From positions 1 through 28,720 of IMG/VR virus record IMGVR_UViG_3300042906_000146: 28,720 nucleotides of DNA. One strand, given 5' to 3'. The notes under the pieces are model-generated. The model had not been told where the DNA came from. It was given only the letters and a program-made list of their open reading frames with translations, and did not search any database. The position numbers were made by a program, and so were the translations under genes. The DNA is from a virus. This document shows positions 4,662 to 27,492 of this stretch, one piece after another (position 1 is the first letter of the stretch; every line of letters begins with the position of its first letter).

Positions 4662-5336
4662 ATGTGTATCTGCAAAAGATGTAATGTTGACAAACCTTTG
4701 GATGAATTCCAAATAGATAAGCGTAGGAACAAGCACTATGGTACTTGCAGAAAGTGCCGTGTCAAAGCGCAGAACGACAGAAGACTTGCAAACATTGACG
4801 AGAGCAGAAAGAAGACTCGTGAGTATTTGCGTGAGTGGAGGATTAAAAACCCAGAAAAAGCTCATGCTGCTGACAAAAGATATAGCGATAAAAACAAGGA
4901 AAAGCGAAATGCTTATGCCAAACAATATCGCAAAGACAATCCTGAGAAAATTAAAGCATTGGCTAAAGAATGGGCAAAAGCTAATCCTGAGAAAATCAGA
5001 GCCTATGGACAAAAAGCAGTTAAGGCTTGGCTTGAGCGTAACCCTGAGTATTCAAGCAACTTTTACAAGGCCAACAAAGAACGTTATGTTGCGGCTAGAG
5101 CAAGGCGTAGGGCGGCTCAAGAGTCAGCCACACCATCTTGGTTAACAGCCATTGATAAAGCTATGATTCAAGAGATGTACGATGTTTCTGAAGCAAGATA
5201 TATCCAAACTGGTATAAAACACCATGTTGACCATATTGTCCCAATTAACGGCAAAGGCGTAGCGGGTATGCACGTTCCTTGGAATTTACAAGTAATAACT
5301 GCTCACGACAATCTGAGCAAAGGTTGGAGATTTTAA
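4662..5336 (+). CDS. HNH homing endonuclease with N-terminal zinc finger
   Basis: A 224-residue free-standing nuclease. Residues 4-32 carry two CxxC pairs (C4/C7 and C29/C32), a zinc knuckle. Residues 40-145 are very basic with repeated NPEK/Y..KN.EK units, a probable DNA-binding linker. The HNH core occupies residues 187-224: HHVDHIVP (H188, D190, H191), then the N-x-PWNLQ segment and a final HDN. It starts 3 bp after the fibre stop and its stop TAA overlaps the adhesin ATG. It has the same HNH core as the nuclease at 26986-27492, so the two are paralogues. It likely spreads itself by cutting phages that lack it. It is unlikely to be needed for virion assembly. Confidence 0.88.
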   Translation: MCICKRCNVDKPLDEFQIDKRRNKHYGTCRKCRVKAQNDRRLANIDESRKKTREYLREWRIKNPEKAHAADKRYSDKNKEKRNAYAKQYRKDNPEKIKALAKEWAKANPEKIRAYGQKAVKAWLERNPEYSSNFYKANKERYVAARARRRAAQESATPSWLTAIDKAMIQEMYDVSEARYIQTGIKHHVDHIVPINGKGVAGMHVPWNLQVITAHDNLSKGWRF

Positions 5337-7257: not shown

Positions 7258-7917
7258 ATGAAAAGCGGAATCTATCATATTAAGAATATTGTCAGTAATG
7301 GCATATATTTTGGTCGCTCTGTTGATGTAGCGGATAGGTTGAGCCATCACAAGCATCAATTAAAGCGTGGTGTTCATGTTAACAAGCGTTTGCAACATTC
7401 ATGGAATAAACATGGTGAGCAATCGTTTGAGTTCAAGATGATTTGGGAAGAAACTCCAGATAAGTTAGAAGAATTAGAAGGCTTTATTCTTGAGACTGTT
7501 TGGGGCAATGAAAGATTGTTTAACCATCACAAACTGTCTGCTGGTGGATTCTTGCCAAACAATAAACTAGGTTGTTTTACAAGGTCAGAAGAAACCAAAA
7601 AGAAATTAAGCGTTGCTTTTAAAGGTCGTGAATTTTCTGAGCAACATAAGCAAAAGATTGCAATAGGTAAAACTGGTTTAAAAGCTAGTGATGAAACTAA
7701 AAAGAAAATGTCAGATAAAAGGTCTGGTAAAGCTAGACCACAATCATGGCATGACAAGATGGCTGAATATAGGGAAAACAATCCAAACCCTATGCAAGGC
7801 AAGATTAGCCCTATGAGAGGAAAGAAATTCCCTACTATTGCTTGTGAGCATTGCGGTAAGGAAGCCTCAAAAGGAAACCACTTACGCTGGCATGGAAACA
7901 ATTGTAGGAGCAAATAA
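7258..7917 (+). CDS. GIY-YIG homing endonuclease with NUMOD3 repeats
   Basis: A 219-residue nuclease. The N-terminal GIY-YIG domain has GIY at residues 4-6, a YFG variant of the second motif at 17-19, R27 and H31 in helix 1, and a glutamate near 74 (LEELEGF) that would be the metal ligand. Residues about 115-165 hold repeated NUMOD3 DNA-binding motifs (SEETKKKLS, SDETKKKMS, with G.A..K...G spacing). The C-terminus has a small zinc finger, CEHCG followed by H and C. This architecture matches T4 Seg-like free-standing homing enzymes. It begins 3 bp after the adhesin stop and its stop overlaps the next ATG (TAATG), so it sits in the operon without disrupting a neighbour. No clear Shine-Dalgarno precedes it. 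Confidence 0.88.
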   Translation: MKSGIYHIKNIVSNGIYFGRSVDVADRLSHHKHQLKRGVHVNKRLQHSWNKHGEQSFEFKMIWEETPDKLEELEGFILETVWGNERLFNHHKLSAGGFLPNNKLGCFTRSEETKKKLSVAFKGREFSEQHKQKIAIGKTGLKASDETKKKMSDKRSGKARPQSWHDKMAEYRENNPNPMQGKISPMRGKKFPTIACEHCGKEASKGNHLRWHGNNCRSK

Positions 7918-14983: not shown

Positions 14984-15479
14984 AGAGATTGAGGTAAGGA
15001 TTTGGGGCTTTGTCGTGGTGGCAGTCACGCTTATCCTCATGTTTATTGTTGCTGCTTTGCTCTATTCGGTCACTTTTGTGACTCAGCCAATCAAAAGCAT
15101 GGCCCCGATTGACCAAGCCTATACCAAGATGCTGAACGACATTGTTCTGCTAATCGTGGGTGGTATCGGTGGAGTTATTGGTAAACGGGCTATGTCAACT
15201 GCCGCCAGAGCGTTTAATCCTCCAACGCAACCAATGTGTCAACCAATGGGTTATGGAGGCTCTCAGGGCGGTTTTAATCAGTCCTATGGGTCTTCCTATG
15301 CCCCTCCGCAATCTGCGTATGGTTTGCCTAGCCAACCATTTGGTGCTATGCCTGTTTGGAAGAACCCAGAGTTGGATGAATCTTGGACACCTGGCCCTCC
15401 TCCGACTACCCCACCTGACCACTTAGAAGATGACCAAGAGCGTGAAGAATTGGCTCAAGCAAGAAAAGAGGCTGAATAA
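14958..15479 (+). CDS. Holin candidate, two membrane helices and long soluble tail
   Basis: TTG 14958 is taken as start because GGAG (14947-14950) lies 7 bp upstream and no ATG comes before the first membrane helix. The 173-residue product has a strong membrane helix at residues 16-40 (GFVVVAVTLILMFIVAALLY), a second weaker one at about 60-78 (DIVLLIVGGIGGVIG), then a Gly/Gln/Pro/Tyr-rich region and an acidic charged C-terminus. It overlaps the lipoprotein gene by 26 bp and abuts the Rz gene. Position before spanins and endolysin suggests the holin, although the long Pro-rich tail is unusual for one. Confidence 0.55.
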   Translation: MTKLNLTTEEIEVRIWGFVVVAVTLILMFIVAALLYSVTFVTQPIKSMAPIDQAYTKMLNDIVLLIVGGIGGVIGKRAMSTAARAFNPPTQPMCQPMGYGGSQGGFNQSYGSSYAPPQSAYGLPSQPFGAMPVWKNPELDESWTPGPPPTTPPDHLEDDQEREELAQARKEAE

Positions 15480-15976
15480 TGTTTCCAATCCCTCTCCCGT
15501 GGCTTATTGTGGGTGCTTTGGTATCTCTCTTTGGTACATACCAAGTTGGACACCACTATGGATGGCTAGAACGTGATAACGACATGAAGATTGCCATTGC
15601 CAAAAAGAATGATGAAGCTCGTCAGATCGAGCAAAACATGGGTGAGAAACTTAATCAACAATCTCTGAAACTACAGGAAGCCAATGATGCCATCAACAAA
15701 AAAACTACTGCTCTTGCTGTTGCCAATCGTGCTGGCAAGTTGCGCCTCTGCCCCTCAAGTAACGTACAAACCCCCACAAGTTCCCCCGTTGCCACCACAG
15801 ATACAAAAGCAACCAGCGAACCTGACAGACAGGCTAATGAACCTTCTGATGCCGAAAGAGCAACCATCGAAGCCATCGCAGAAATAGTGGCACAGGGGGA
15901 TCGGAACACTATTGCATTGAATGCTTGTGTAGATTCTTACAATGATGTTAGGAACTTACTAAATGATAAACGCTGA
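15479..15976 (+). CDS. Rz: Rz-like inner-membrane spanin (i-spanin)
   Basis: A 165-residue protein with an N-terminal membrane anchor (residues about 6-24, LPWLIVGALVSLFGTYQVG), then a periplasmic coiled coil (residues 33-85, rich in Lys, Glu, Gln, Asn), two Cys (CPSS and NACVD), and a low-complexity Thr/Ser/Pro stretch where the Rz1 frame overlaps. This is the Rz architecture. With the o-spanin it bridges the periplasm and fuses inner and outer membranes after endolysin action. The Rz1 partner gene lies wholly inside it in the +1 frame. The stop overlaps the endolysin start region by 14 bp. Confidence 0.82.
   Translation: MFPIPLPWLIVGALVSLFGTYQVGHHYGWLERDNDMKIAIAKKNDEARQIEQNMGEKLNQQSLKLQEANDAINKKTTALAVANRAGKLRLCPSSNVQTPTSSPVATTDTKATSEPDRQANEPSDAERATIEAIAEIVAQGDRNTIALNACVDSYNDVRNLLNDKR
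15687..15887 (+). CDS. Rz1: Rz1-like outer-membrane lipoprotein spanin (o-spanin), nested in Rz
   Basis: A 66-residue protein encoded entirely within the Rz gene in another frame. ATG 15687 is preferred over ATG 15684 because AGGAAG (15675-15680) is then 6 bp away. It has a signal KKLLLLLLPIVLASC with lipobox LASC (lipid at C19) and a mature part rich in Pro (YKPPQVPPLPPQIQKQP), the hallmark of Rz1. Complete nesting inside Rz is known from lambda-type spanin pairs. It would be anchored in the outer membrane and contact the Rz coiled coil. Confidence 0.88.
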   Translation: MPSTKKLLLLLLPIVLASCASAPQVTYKPPQVPPLPPQIQKQPANLTDRLMNLLMPKEQPSKPSQK

Positions 15977-19423: not shown

Positions 19424-20191
19424 ATGGCTAATCCTTGGTTTAGGCTCTATTCAGAGTTCGCACACGACCCGAAAATCCAAATGCTTTCAGAGGCTATGCA
19501 AAGACGTTATGTCATGCTTATGTGCCTTCGATGTAGCGAAGTTCTTGAAACGTTACATGAAACAGAGATAGCGTTTCAACTAAGGTTATCCACAGGCGAA
19601 TTGGATGAAACTAAAGAGTTGTTTATCAGCAAGAATTTCATTGATAAACATTGGAATCTGCTTAATTGGGATAAACGTCAATTTGTCTCAGACTCAAGCA
19701 CCATGCGGGTTGCCAAGCATCGTAATAAAAAGAAACAGGTAAGTAACGTTGGTGAAACGTTACAGAAACGCTCAAGTAACGCTATAGATACAGATACAGA
19801 TACAGAACAGATACAGATACAGAAAAGAACAACTAGCGTTGCACCACCTATCGGTGTTTCTGATTCAGTTTGGCAAGAATTCAAAACATTGAGGAAAGCC
19901 AAGAAAGCCCCGATAACCCAAAGAGCCATAGACAAGATTTCAGAGGAAGCCAACTTAGCGGGTTGGACATTGGAAAAAGCCTTAGAGGAATGTATCGTTC
20001 GTGGTTGGCAAGCATTCAAAGCAGAGTGGGTTGCGAAAAAAGGAAATCCCGCTGACAACATAAGGCTCACAGTTCCACCATCAAATGAGCCTGACCCTGC
20101 GCTTGAGAAGATCAAGGCTGATGCAAAAACAACACGCCCACCAACAGCGGCAGAGCGAGAAATTCTTAATTCTTTCAGGAGAAAAGCATGA
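19424..20191 (+). CDS. Replication initiator / replisome organiser (lambda O-like)
   Basis: A 255-residue protein. The N-terminal 95 residues (start MANPWFRLYSEFAHDPKIQM, followed by a YVMLMCLRC helix and LRLSTGELDETK) match the winged-helix origin-binding domain seen at the start of phage replisome organisers. A hydrophilic linker (residues 100-145) is coded by a repeat-rich DNA segment. The C-terminal part is helical (TQRAIDKISEEANLAGWTLE, then GWQAFKAEW), resembling helicase-loader-contacting domains. It has its own promoter and leader. No separate helicase loader follows, so the host helicase may be recruited directly. Assignment is by pattern and by the origin-like repeats inside the gene. 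Confidence 0.7.
   Translation: MANPWFRLYSEFAHDPKIQMLSEAMQRRYVMLMCLRCSEVLETLHETEIAFQLRLSTGELDETKELFISKNFIDKHWNLLNWDKRQFVSDSSTMRVAKHRNKKKQVSNVGETLQKRSSNAIDTDTDTEQIQIQKRTTSVAPPIGVSDSVWQEFKTLRKAKKAPITQRAIDKISEEANLAGWTLEKALEECIVRGWQAFKAEWVAKKGNPADNIRLTVPPSNEPDPALEKIKADAKTTRPPTAAEREILNSFRRKA
19743..19821. repeat. Origin-like repeats inside the initiator gene
   Basis: GTAACGTT (19743-19750) and AACGTTAC (19756-19763) form a perfect 8-bp inverted repeat around 5 bp. GTAACGCT follows at 19776, and another AACGTTAC lies upstream at 19549-19556. Then come three GATACA hexamers (19787-19804), a GAACA, and two more GATACA (19810-19821). Binding-site repeats next to a short tandem array, within the initiator gene, resemble the lambda ori arrangement. 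Confidence 0.55.
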
Positions 20192-20394
20192 ACTTTTTAG
20201 ATTCTTATCCAACAGAGTTTTACATTTCAGATGTTGGTTATTTGGTGTTTAAACAAGATTGTTTTGAGTGTGGACATCAAACTCAGTTTTTAATTACCCC
20301 AGAGCAAACAAAAATACTTTTAAATTTATTGCCTGACATGATTAAGCAACAAACAGAAAGATGGACAGGAATTCAATCTCCTGAAATTGAATGA
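20188..20394 (+). CDS. Small CxxCxH protein upstream of mom-like gene
   Basis: A 68-residue protein with AGGAG 7 bp before ATG, overlapping both neighbours by ATGA. The N-terminus is aromatic (FLDSYPTEFYISDVGYLVF), followed by DCFECGHQTQF, a single CxxCxH that could be half a zinc site, and a helical C-terminus. In Mu a small zinc-finger protein, Com, is coded just before and overlapping mom and activates its translation. This gene has the same place and similar size but only one Cys pair, so a Com-like role is only a hypothesis. Confidence 0.65.
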   Translation: MNFLDSYPTEFYISDVGYLVFKQDCFECGHQTQFLITPEQTKILLNLLPDMIKQQTERWTGIQSPEIE

Positions 20395-21047
20395 AAGTGT
20401 TGCCAATAAACAACTTTGAAGTTGAGCCTTGGTTGCTTGAAAAACACTATGCCAAGCGGATGCCACAAATAATGTTTGCGTTTGGGCTTTACAAAGATGA
20501 CATCTTGGTTGGCGTAGTGACTTATGGGATTCCCGCCTCACCACCACTTTGCATGGGAATCTGTGGCAAAGAATACTCAGACAAAGTTTTAGAGCTAAAC
20601 CGAGTCTGTTTGTTGGCCAACCACAAAAACGAAGCATCATTTCTTGTTGCGAACTCAATCAAGTTATTGCCAAAACCAATGATTGTTGTTTCATTTGCAG
20701 ATACAAGTAAAGGTCATGTTGGATATGTATATCAGGCTACTAATTTTCTTTACACTGGTTTATCAGCTAACAGAATTGATTGGACTATAAAAGGTCAAGA
20801 GCATAAACACGCTAAAACCATTGGCGATGGCTTAACTTTGGCAGAGATAAAAGAGCTTCATGGCGATGACTTTTACTATGTCGAACGATCTAGGAAACAT
20901 CGTTACATCATCTTTCATGGGTCAAAGACTGACAAAAAAGTCATGCGATCTAAGCTGAAATACGAAGTTATGCCGTATCCCAAAGGCGACTCACAGAGAT
21001 ATGACTCTGGAACAACTGTAAAAACCCAACAACTTTTATTTGTATGA
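20391..21047 (+). CDS. mom: Mom-family DNA adenine modification protein
   Basis: A 218-residue protein of the Mom type (GNAT-like fold), which converts adenine to a methylcarbamoyl (momylated) form and so protects phage DNA from many restriction enzymes. Recognisable blocks are LLEKHYAKRMPQIMFAFGLY (residues 15-34), GICGKEYSDKVLELNRVCL (56-74), the NEASFLVANSIKLLPKP block (80-96), and VVSFADTSKGHVGYVYQATN (99-118), the family's most conserved stretch. Length is close to Mu Mom. ATG overlaps the upstream CxxC gene (ATGA), and its stop overlaps a further microgene. It is placed in the replication operon rather than late, unlike Mu. The actual modification is inferred from the family. Confidence 0.85.
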   Translation: MKVLPINNFEVEPWLLEKHYAKRMPQIMFAFGLYKDDILVGVVTYGIPASPPLCMGICGKEYSDKVLELNRVCLLANHKNEASFLVANSIKLLPKPMIVVSFADTSKGHVGYVYQATNFLYTGLSANRIDWTIKGQEHKHAKTIGDGLTLAEIKELHGDDFYYVERSRKHRYIIFHGSKTDKKVMRSKLKYEVMPYPKGDSQRYDSGTTVKTQQLLFV

Positions 21048-21151
21048 ACTACTTTGAAGCGATGAGACTTTTGGACAAAGTGAAAGAGGGTGTTCCTTAT
21101 CCCTTACATCTGATAAACAAAGCATTGGAGTTAACTGGTGACTTGGAGTAG
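21044..21151 (+). CDS. 35-residue microprotein
   Basis: ATG 21044 overlaps the mom stop (ATGA), and the frame ends at TAG 21149-21151 inside the next gene. The peptide is an acidic amphipathic helix (NYFEAMRLLDKVKEG, then LHLINKALELTGD). Its last codons carry the GGAG that serves as SD for the next gene. The only support is the overlapping layout. Confidence 0.45.
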   Translation: MNYFEAMRLLDKVKEGVPYPLHLINKALELTGDLE

Positions 21152-21350
21152 AAGAAACATTCAAGGCCCAAGCGATAGAGTAATCCTTGAGCAAGCCGAG
21201 GCTAGAGAGCTATATCGAAATTGGGAAGGAAGTAAAAATCGTGACCTTATCAGGGCGAGACTTGAGAGAGCCGAAAGAATCTATGGCATAGGTGCAAGAG
21301 ATCGCATAAGGGAATATATGAACCGAATCAAAGATGGGACACTTTTATGA
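21138..21350 (+). CDS. Small basic helical protein
   Basis: GTG 21138 is the start, with GGAG at 21127-21130 7 bp upstream. The 70-residue product is rich in Arg and Glu and almost wholly helical (SDRVILEQAEARELYRNWEG, then IRARLERAERIYGIGARDRI). It overlaps the rusA ATG. The high Arg content suggests nucleic-acid or protein binding. No family name can be given. Confidence 0.65.
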   Translation: MTWSRRNIQGPSDRVILEQAEARELYRNWEGSKNRDLIRARLERAERIYGIGARDRIREYMNRIKDGTLL

Positions 21351-21775
21351 CTTTCATGGTGACTTTCAAACTAGACGCTGACCCTGTTGGCAAACAAAGA
21401 GCAAGATACGCTAGGCGAGGAAACTTTGTCCAGACTTACACCCCTGACAAAACTAGAACCTATGAATCTTTAATCAAAGAAGCCGCTACAGAAGCAATGG
21501 GAAGTTCTGAACCACTGGAAACCCCTGTAAATCTGTATCTCTACATTCGAGCACCTATCCCCAAGTCTTACTCTAAAAAGAAAATAGCAGACTGTTTAAA
21601 CGGCCTTGAGAAACCAATTAAGAAGCCTGACGCATCAAATGTTCTCAAGAGCGTAGAAGATGCAATGAATGGAGTTGTTTATAGGGATGACTGTCAAATC
21701 GTCAACTTTCATGTGTCAAAGGTTTATTCAAGTCAATCAGGAATAGATGTGTGCGTAAAAGAATGCTTGGACTAA
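21347..21775 (+). CDS. rusA: RusA-family Holliday junction resolvase
   Basis: A 142-residue resolvase. The family signature is clear: KPDASNVLKSVEDAMNG (residues 93-109) with D95 and D105, followed by VVYRDDCQIV with D114/D115. These Asp residues coordinate metal for strand cleavage. The N-terminal GKQRARYARRGNFVQTYTPD is the usual opening. It acts on four-way junctions made by annealing and recombination, complementing the Sak3/SSB genes, and clears branches before packaging. An alternative start is the second Met at residue 4. Its stop codon overlaps a candidate operator. Confidence 0.92.
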   Translation: MTFMVTFKLDADPVGKQRARYARRGNFVQTYTPDKTRTYESLIKEAATEAMGSSEPLETPVNLYLYIRAPIPKSYSKKKIADCLNGLEKPIKKPDASNVLKSVEDAMNGVVYRDDCQIVNFHVSKVYSSQSGIDVCVKECLD

Positions 21776-26630: not shown

Positions 26631-26993
26631 ATGGAAAAAAGAGGAAGAGGAAGACCAAAGGGAAGCGTCAAGATGACCATACAGAGGTTTGCTGACAATC
26701 CTCCTCTTGTACTACCTAAGACAGACCATCAACGTCTCAAGGAGCTTAAAGAGCTGATGATTAGGAGTGGGGGTAAGGATGTGGCTCAGAAGGTTATTGA
26801 GATAGCCCTTAATGATGAGCATCCCCATCAATTGGTAGCTTTGAAGATGTGTCTTGATAGGACTCTTCCTGTAAGTATGTTCGAGAAGGACAAGACCCAA
26901 AGGTCTGCGGTGAGCATCACAATTACTGGATTGGGTGAACCGACTATAATAGAGCCTAATAACGCTGAAGACGTAGAGGCTAAATATGAGTAG
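26631..26993 (+). CDS. terS: Small terminase subunit candidate
   Basis: A 120-residue protein with AAGGAGG 6 bp before ATG. The N-terminus MEKRGRGRPKGSVK is an AT-hook-like basic stretch for DNA binding. The middle is helical (QRLKELKELMIRSGGKDVAQ, VIEIALNDEHPHQLVALKMC), followed by LDRTLPVSMFEK and a beta strand SAVSITITGLGEP at the end. This LNDEHPHQ..ALKM..DR..P block is common in proteins directly before large terminases. TerS picks the packaging site and regulates TerL. The gene pair is now separated by an HNH gene. Confidence 0.72.
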   Translation: MEKRGRGRPKGSVKMTIQRFADNPPLVLPKTDHQRLKELKELMIRSGGKDVAQKVIEIALNDEHPHQLVALKMCLDRTLPVSMFEKDKTQRSAVSITITGLGEPTIIEPNNAEDVEAKYE

Positions 26994-27492
26994 AGCAGCA
27001 GAACGTGCCAATGCAAAAGAGCTTGGTGAGCGTTTTTACTTTACTGGCAAACCCTGTAAGCATGGGCATATTTCAAAGCGTTATACAGATAAGGGCACTT
27101 GTTGCGAGTGCATGACTCTTGATTTCGAGGCTAAAAAAGAATCAAGATTAAGCCAAATGAAGTCAAATTACGAAGCAAAGAAGTCAATCTATGCTCAAAG
27201 GATGGTTTCTTGGAGAGCAAACAATAAGCACAAACAAGCCGTGTATTCCTCTAAGAAGCGGTCTGAAATCATGTTGCGGACACCCAAGTGGCTAGATTCA
27301 GATGCTTTTGCCAAGATGGAAGAGTACTACTACACCGCCAATATGCTTGGGATGCACACTGGTGAGCAATACCATGTTGACCATATAGTTCCGCTAAGAG
27401 GCAAGTTGGTAAGCGGTTTAAATGTTCCTTGGAACTTACAAATCCTTACAAAGACGGACAACCTAAGAAAGAAAAACAAGTTCTATGGCTGA
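26986..27492 (+). CDS. HNH homing endonuclease between terminase genes
   Basis: A 168-residue nuclease. The N-terminal zinc finger has CKHGH (C24, H26) and CCEC (C39, C40, C42). A basic linker (residues 47-95) leads to the HNH core at about 126-168: QYHVDHIVPLRG (H130, D132, H133), N-x-PWNLQ and a final TDN. It shares the HNH core and the zinc-linker-HNH order with the gene at 4662-5336. It overlaps terS by 8 bp and terL by 8 bp, so it inserted between two essential genes without breaking them. This is typical of free-standing homing enzymes that target conserved sites nearby. Confidence 0.87.
   Translation: MSRAAERANAKELGERFYFTGKPCKHGHISKRYTDKGTCCECMTLDFEAKKESRLSQMKSNYEAKKSIYAQRMVSWRANNKHKQAVYSSKKRSEIMLRTPKWLDSDAFAKMEEYYYTANMLGMHTGEQYHVDHIVPLRGKLVSGLNVPWNLQILTKTDNLRKKNKFYG

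Follow-up and report, generated by a model that had tools for sequence, protein, structure and literature searches.

The mom locus and its product

The window, by which we mean the whole stretch of DNA analysed, spans 28,720 nucleotides (positions 1 to 28,720 of IMG/VR virus record IMGVR_UViG_3300042906_000146) and comes from a group of phages that we take to be freshwater, judging from where such contigs occur. Among its replication genes lie a gene of the Mom family and the features that define its setting:

19424..20191, plus strand: replication initiator (lambda O-like / DnaD-like; phrog_678, E=4.7e-17; phrog_10469, E=1.1e-15), the 5' border of the slot described below
20188..20394, plus strand: p68, an optional small protein, predicted beta-beta-beta-alpha, not Com (model and alignments)
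20391..21047, plus strand: mom, a Mom-family (GNAT-fold) DNA modification enzyme of 218 aa (Pfam, PHROGs, PDB and AlphaFold2 model)
21044..21151, plus strand: ORF of 35 aa, starting at the ATGA that overlaps the mom stop; constant 3' border of the slot, of no known family (sequence)
21138..21350, plus strand: p70, a conserved ORF of 70 aa used as an anchor (locus comparison)
21347..21775, plus strand: RusA-like Holliday junction resolvase, the downstream anchor (PF05866, E=3.9e-32)

The first-pass annotation had located the 218-residue ORF correctly, as it had the 68-residue ORF with its CFECGH motif and single cysteine pair and the 4-bp ATGA overlap by which that ORF runs into mom. The initiator gene and p68 are joined by the same kind of ATGA overlap. 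The replication setting that it had proposed is also real, with the O-like/DnaD-like initiator before p68 and RusA downstream.

Several other genes of the window were noted. An Rz-like gene (15479-15976) contains an internal out-of-frame ORF (15684-15887) with a lipoprotein signal (LASC), an arrangement that by eye is like Rz/Rz1. On the strand opposite the replication genes, a Sak-type single-strand annealing protein (PF06378; 17354-18285, minus strand) adjoins an SSB-like protein. There are also three apparent free-standing endonucleases: two endonuclease VII/HNH-like proteins, at 26986-27492 (phrog_1035) and at 4662-5336 (by eye), and a GIY-YIG-like protein among the tail genes at 7258-7917 (by eye).

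The Mom family blocks that had been recognised in the 218-residue protein from the sequence are borne out by database comparison. The Pfam Mom profile PF25680 matches residues 14-198 (E=1.4e-35) over profile positions 15-202 of 202, with a score of 123.2 bits against a cut-off of 27.1; a PHROGs search returned phrog_1384 (E=6.7e-55), and the sequence matches Mu Mom in the PDB (8bv8, E=1.1e-8), while a search of NCBIfam gave no match. Modelled with AlphaFold2 from 51 diverse sequences, the protein reaches a mean pLDDT of 88.6, and the model finds 8bv8 with Foldseek at E=2.2e-10. Superposed on 8bv8, it gives Z=19.2, with 174 residues aligned at an rmsd of 3.4; the score of the next GNAT enzyme is 12.5. 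According to its title, 8bv8 is the inactive S124A mutant of Mu Mom, and S124 pairs with S83 of the window protein. The first-pass annotation had named loss of catalytic residues as the observation that would speak against Mom. No such loss was seen, S83 being kept in 50 of the 51 diverse members and H19, Y20, R23, R71, N80, Y114 and K169 being invariant in all 51. The agreement of profile, solved structure, fold and active site strongly supports the assignment of the 218-aa protein as a true member of the Mom family.

Across 80 close homologues the median dN/dS of mom is 0.017, as against 0.08-0.09 for p70 and RusA, suggesting that the Mom protein is under strong constraint and is very likely functional. 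Relatives of Mom occur in 278 phage records; in a host search, neither Mom nor the 514-aa structural protein of the window had relatives in the genome contigs searched. The Mom protein of Mu coats phage DNA with a chemical group, and host enzymes are then unable to cut it. By analogy with the family, the window Mom would modify adenines and protect the virion DNA.

Occupancy of the interval between initiator and RusA

The slot, that is the interval between the initiator and RusA, was sampled independently of mom from loci anchored on the 70-aa ORF or on RusA. This gave 85 non-redundant loci that extend 1.4 kb or more upstream, whose occupants were identified with Pfam and PHROGs. The slot contains mom in 31 of the 85 loci and another modification gene in 21: eight N6/N4 methyltransferases, six DpdA/queuine-TGT-like genes, three ABC-GNAT fusions, two C5 methyltransferases, one further methyltransferase and one PAPS-reductase-like gene, which may or may not act in DNA modification. 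An HNH endonuclease occupies a further slot. The ABC-GNAT genes (L249:1403-2485, L264 and L353) encode an ABC-ATPase fused to a GNAT domain (phrog_11143, a family of unknown function) and might catalyse an as yet uncharacterised DNA acylation; for ABC-linked GNAT proteins, a role in DNA modification has been predicted (PMC7824862). The DpdA-like gene at L340:784-1521 (phrog_887, E=9e-69) has counterparts in five other loci, and its start always lies at the ATGA of the preceding gene.

These genes sit in the slot as cassettes with precise borders. The 5' junction is ATGA in nearly all loci, two copies of mom starting instead with GTGA, and most cassettes end at the ATGA of the 35-aa ORF. The 3' junction is ATGA in every case of Mom, N6/N4 methyltransferase, C5 methyltransferase and DpdA; the PAPS-reductase case, a phrog_1008 case and one ABC-GNAT case are the exceptions. 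L084 and L086 show the empty site of mom: there, p68 is joined through ATGA to the 35-aa ORF itself.

Exactly one modification gene was found in 52 of the 85 slots, and two were found in none, within either 1.4 or 2.0 kb. Mom together with another modification gene was observed 0 times against 7.7 expected at 1.4 kb (hypergeometric P=1.2e-5, a value that takes no account of the phylogeny of these related loci), and the count is also 0 at 2.0 and 2.7 kb. The rival modification families were first found in mom-negative slots, a bias that is partly covered by a check of the Mom-positive slots, in which the only other large unknown gene is one HNH-endonuclease-like ORF. That one modification gene occupies a slot at a time, with several kinds alternating, suggests that mom is an interchangeable anti-restriction cassette.

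Could the slot be an ordinary moron hotspot near replication genes, filled with modification genes simply because these are common in phages? We consider this unlikely, although it is the alternative that fares best. In cryoconite phages, orphan methyltransferases have been described as the flexible genes met most often (PMC7468147), and some of our loci have modification genes downstream of the anchor as well. In the 2.7-kb set, moreover, locus L347 combines a C5 methyltransferase in the slot with a DpdA-like gene 1.9 kb upstream, neither of them mom. This pair and the downstream genes indicate that the slot is enriched in modification genes rather than exclusive to them. A hotspot of this kind does not, however, readily account for the one-gene occupancy described above, and p68, by contrast, was found in the slot together with mom three times and with a methyltransferase once. 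Downstream modification genes are also rarer in loci with Mom (1/31) than in those without a slot gene (14/33; Fisher P=0.0002, again with phylogeny disregarded), which favours redundancy between modification genes. Exclusion in the slot may arise because a single protection suffices or because two do not tolerate each other, or it may be no more than the outcome of recombination in the flanks exchanging one cassette for another.

Some evidence points to movement of the cassette itself. The gene 5' of mom varies between loci, and mom itself is 93-100% identical. Among the 80 close homologues the median dS of mom is 0.41, compared with about 1.0 for p70 and RusA, suggesting that mom moved between phage backbones after these had diverged; alternatively, the low dS of mom may reflect strong constraint on synonymous sites.

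Substrate of Mom, and p68 and the translation of mom

Other GNAT substrates are possible for the window Mom. The enzyme could act on a target other than DNA adenine, or add a different group, given that GNAT substrates diverge easily, that its identity to Mu Mom is only about 23-28%, and that its sequence continues beyond PYPK in a C-terminal tail absent from Mu Mom. We regard this as improbable, since the catalytic positions are conserved, the fold is far nearer to Mom than to other GNATs, and the slot is one common to DNA-modifying genes. Modification of DNA adenine is the reading that we prefer.

In Mu, mom has a translational activator in Com, whose N-terminal finger carries four zinc cysteines and whose target is a hairpin close to the start of mom (PMC6483171). 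The first-pass annotation had seen an echo of this com-mom arrangement in the window, p68 being small, with a CxxC motif, and immediately 5' of mom. That p68 is a zinc-binding translational activator of mom is nonetheless so improbable that it can be set aside: p68 has no match to Com (phrog_13819) in PHROGs or by BLAST, and HHalign against Com gives a probability of 0.7% over 8 columns; it has two cysteines only, lost in four aligned relatives (L052 and L057, both immediately 5' of mom, lack the CFECGH segment altogether, and L098 and L099 have SLEYGH in its place); of 79 close mom loci whose upstream gene could be read, only 5 have a p68-family gene directly before mom, and of 43 p68-family loci, 36 lack mom in the flank retrieved, which extends 1.3 kb or more downstream in 33 of them; and Com homologues were found in only 27 phage records, compared with 278 for Mom. 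By these last counts, Com appears to be restricted to a minority of the phages with Mom. The overlap, too, is unlike that of Mu, in whose annotation com and mom share 80 bp.

On these grounds of similarity, cysteines and linkage, p68 is not Com, and it is not consistently linked to mom; in most of the other close mom loci it is the initiator or a related replication gene that ends at mom. A zinc ribbon was also considered for p68 and rejected: the Pfam matches are sub-threshold (E 0.02-0.1), and the structural model, of modest confidence (pLDDT 72), places CFECGH in the turn of a predicted beta-hairpin. Structure prediction had been proposed as a check of p68 against Com; a Foldseek search of the PDB with this model returned nothing at E<=0.001.

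A translation inhibition hairpin was also looked for at the mom start. RNA folding there has z=-0.73 in the window; the Mu control, with only z=-0.48, does not stand out either, so that folding does not discriminate. A CAGGA/TCCTG stem 5' of mom is also found in p68 loci without mom. The window mom has no Shine-Dalgarno-like core 4-18 nt before its start, which fits translational coupling, while 64 of 80 relatives do have such a core, so that coupling is unproven. We infer that translation of mom is probably coupled to that of the preceding gene and is not driven by Com.

Proposed role and comparison with known systems

We propose that the window ORF encodes a GNAT-fold acyl/methylcarbamoyl transferase of the Mom family, which would most likely modify the adenines of the phage DNA during replication and thereby hide it from host restriction enzymes. 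The gene would be kept as a precise cassette, usually bounded by ATGA, between the initiator and the block formed by the 35-aa ORF, the 70-aa ORF and RusA, and recombination in the flanking genes could allow related phages to swap it for other DNA-modifying genes or to lose it. Its translation would probably be coupled through ATGA to the gene before it, which is p68 in the window and usually the initiator in related phages, with no activator of the Com type present. The slot would then supply one DNA protection at a time, encoded together with the replication proteins, and Mom would be one of the options. We put a probability of about 0.8 on this explanation as a whole, that is, a Mom-family enzyme held as a swappable cassette, probably translated by coupling and having no Com; its direct support comes from the family, fold and active-site conservation of the protein, the cassette borders, the alternation of slot genes and the lack of linkage between p68 and mom.

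The wider reading is that a widespread freshwater phage group keeps a dedicated modification slot beside its initiator, in which chemically different and mutually exclusive cassettes replace one another, one being sufficient or two incompatible; to this we would give even odds. The chemistries involved would, on this reading, be acylation of adenine by Mom, 7-deazaguanine (DpdA-like), ABC-GNAT acylation and N6/N4 or C5 methylation. If the proposed activity is true, Mom works without Com and within a replication-gene cluster. Related backbones with different DNA protections would also form a natural experiment, in which each protection could be set directly against the others for its worth in resisting host restriction. 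The slot genes about which little is known, ABC-GNAT fusions among them, would be candidates for new DNA modifications.

Databases already contain phages with Mom but no Com. One slot alternating Mom, methyltransferases, DpdA-like proteins and ABC-GNAT fusions appears to be new; a literature search found no description of the initiator-RusA slot, which is weak evidence because journal coverage was partial.

The window Mom shares with Mu Mom (PDB 8bv8; PF25680; phrog_1384) its family, the GNAT fold, the position of the catalytic serine and the blocks HY..R, E-L-x-R, N..S, A-D/E, YQA.N and YPK, and differs from it in the extra C-terminal tail. The genes are also set differently: mom of Mu lies at the genome end and overlaps com by 80 bp, whereas mom of the window lies in a replication-gene cluster and has no Com, with a 4-bp ATGA overlap. 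Mu Com (phrog_13819) and p68 are alike in being small and encoded just 5' of mom, but Com has a four-cysteine zinc finger, whereas p68 has one non-conserved cysteine pair and no sequence similarity to Com. Phages of Listeria, Staphylococcus, Exiguobacterium, Acinetobacter and Roseobacter encode single-domain Mom-like proteins with 38-43% identity to that of the window, though the neighbours of these genes differ from those seen here; in the four inspected (Acinetobacter, Exiguobacterium, Roseobacter and Listeria), no Com-like protein is encoded immediately upstream of Mom. A parallel to the slot lies in the flexible orphan methyltransferase genes of phages (PMC7468147), which are likewise variable anti-restriction genes in otherwise related phages; here, by comparison, it is one defined slot that alternates between types of modification, including Mom, DpdA/TGT-like proteins and ABC-GNAT fusions.
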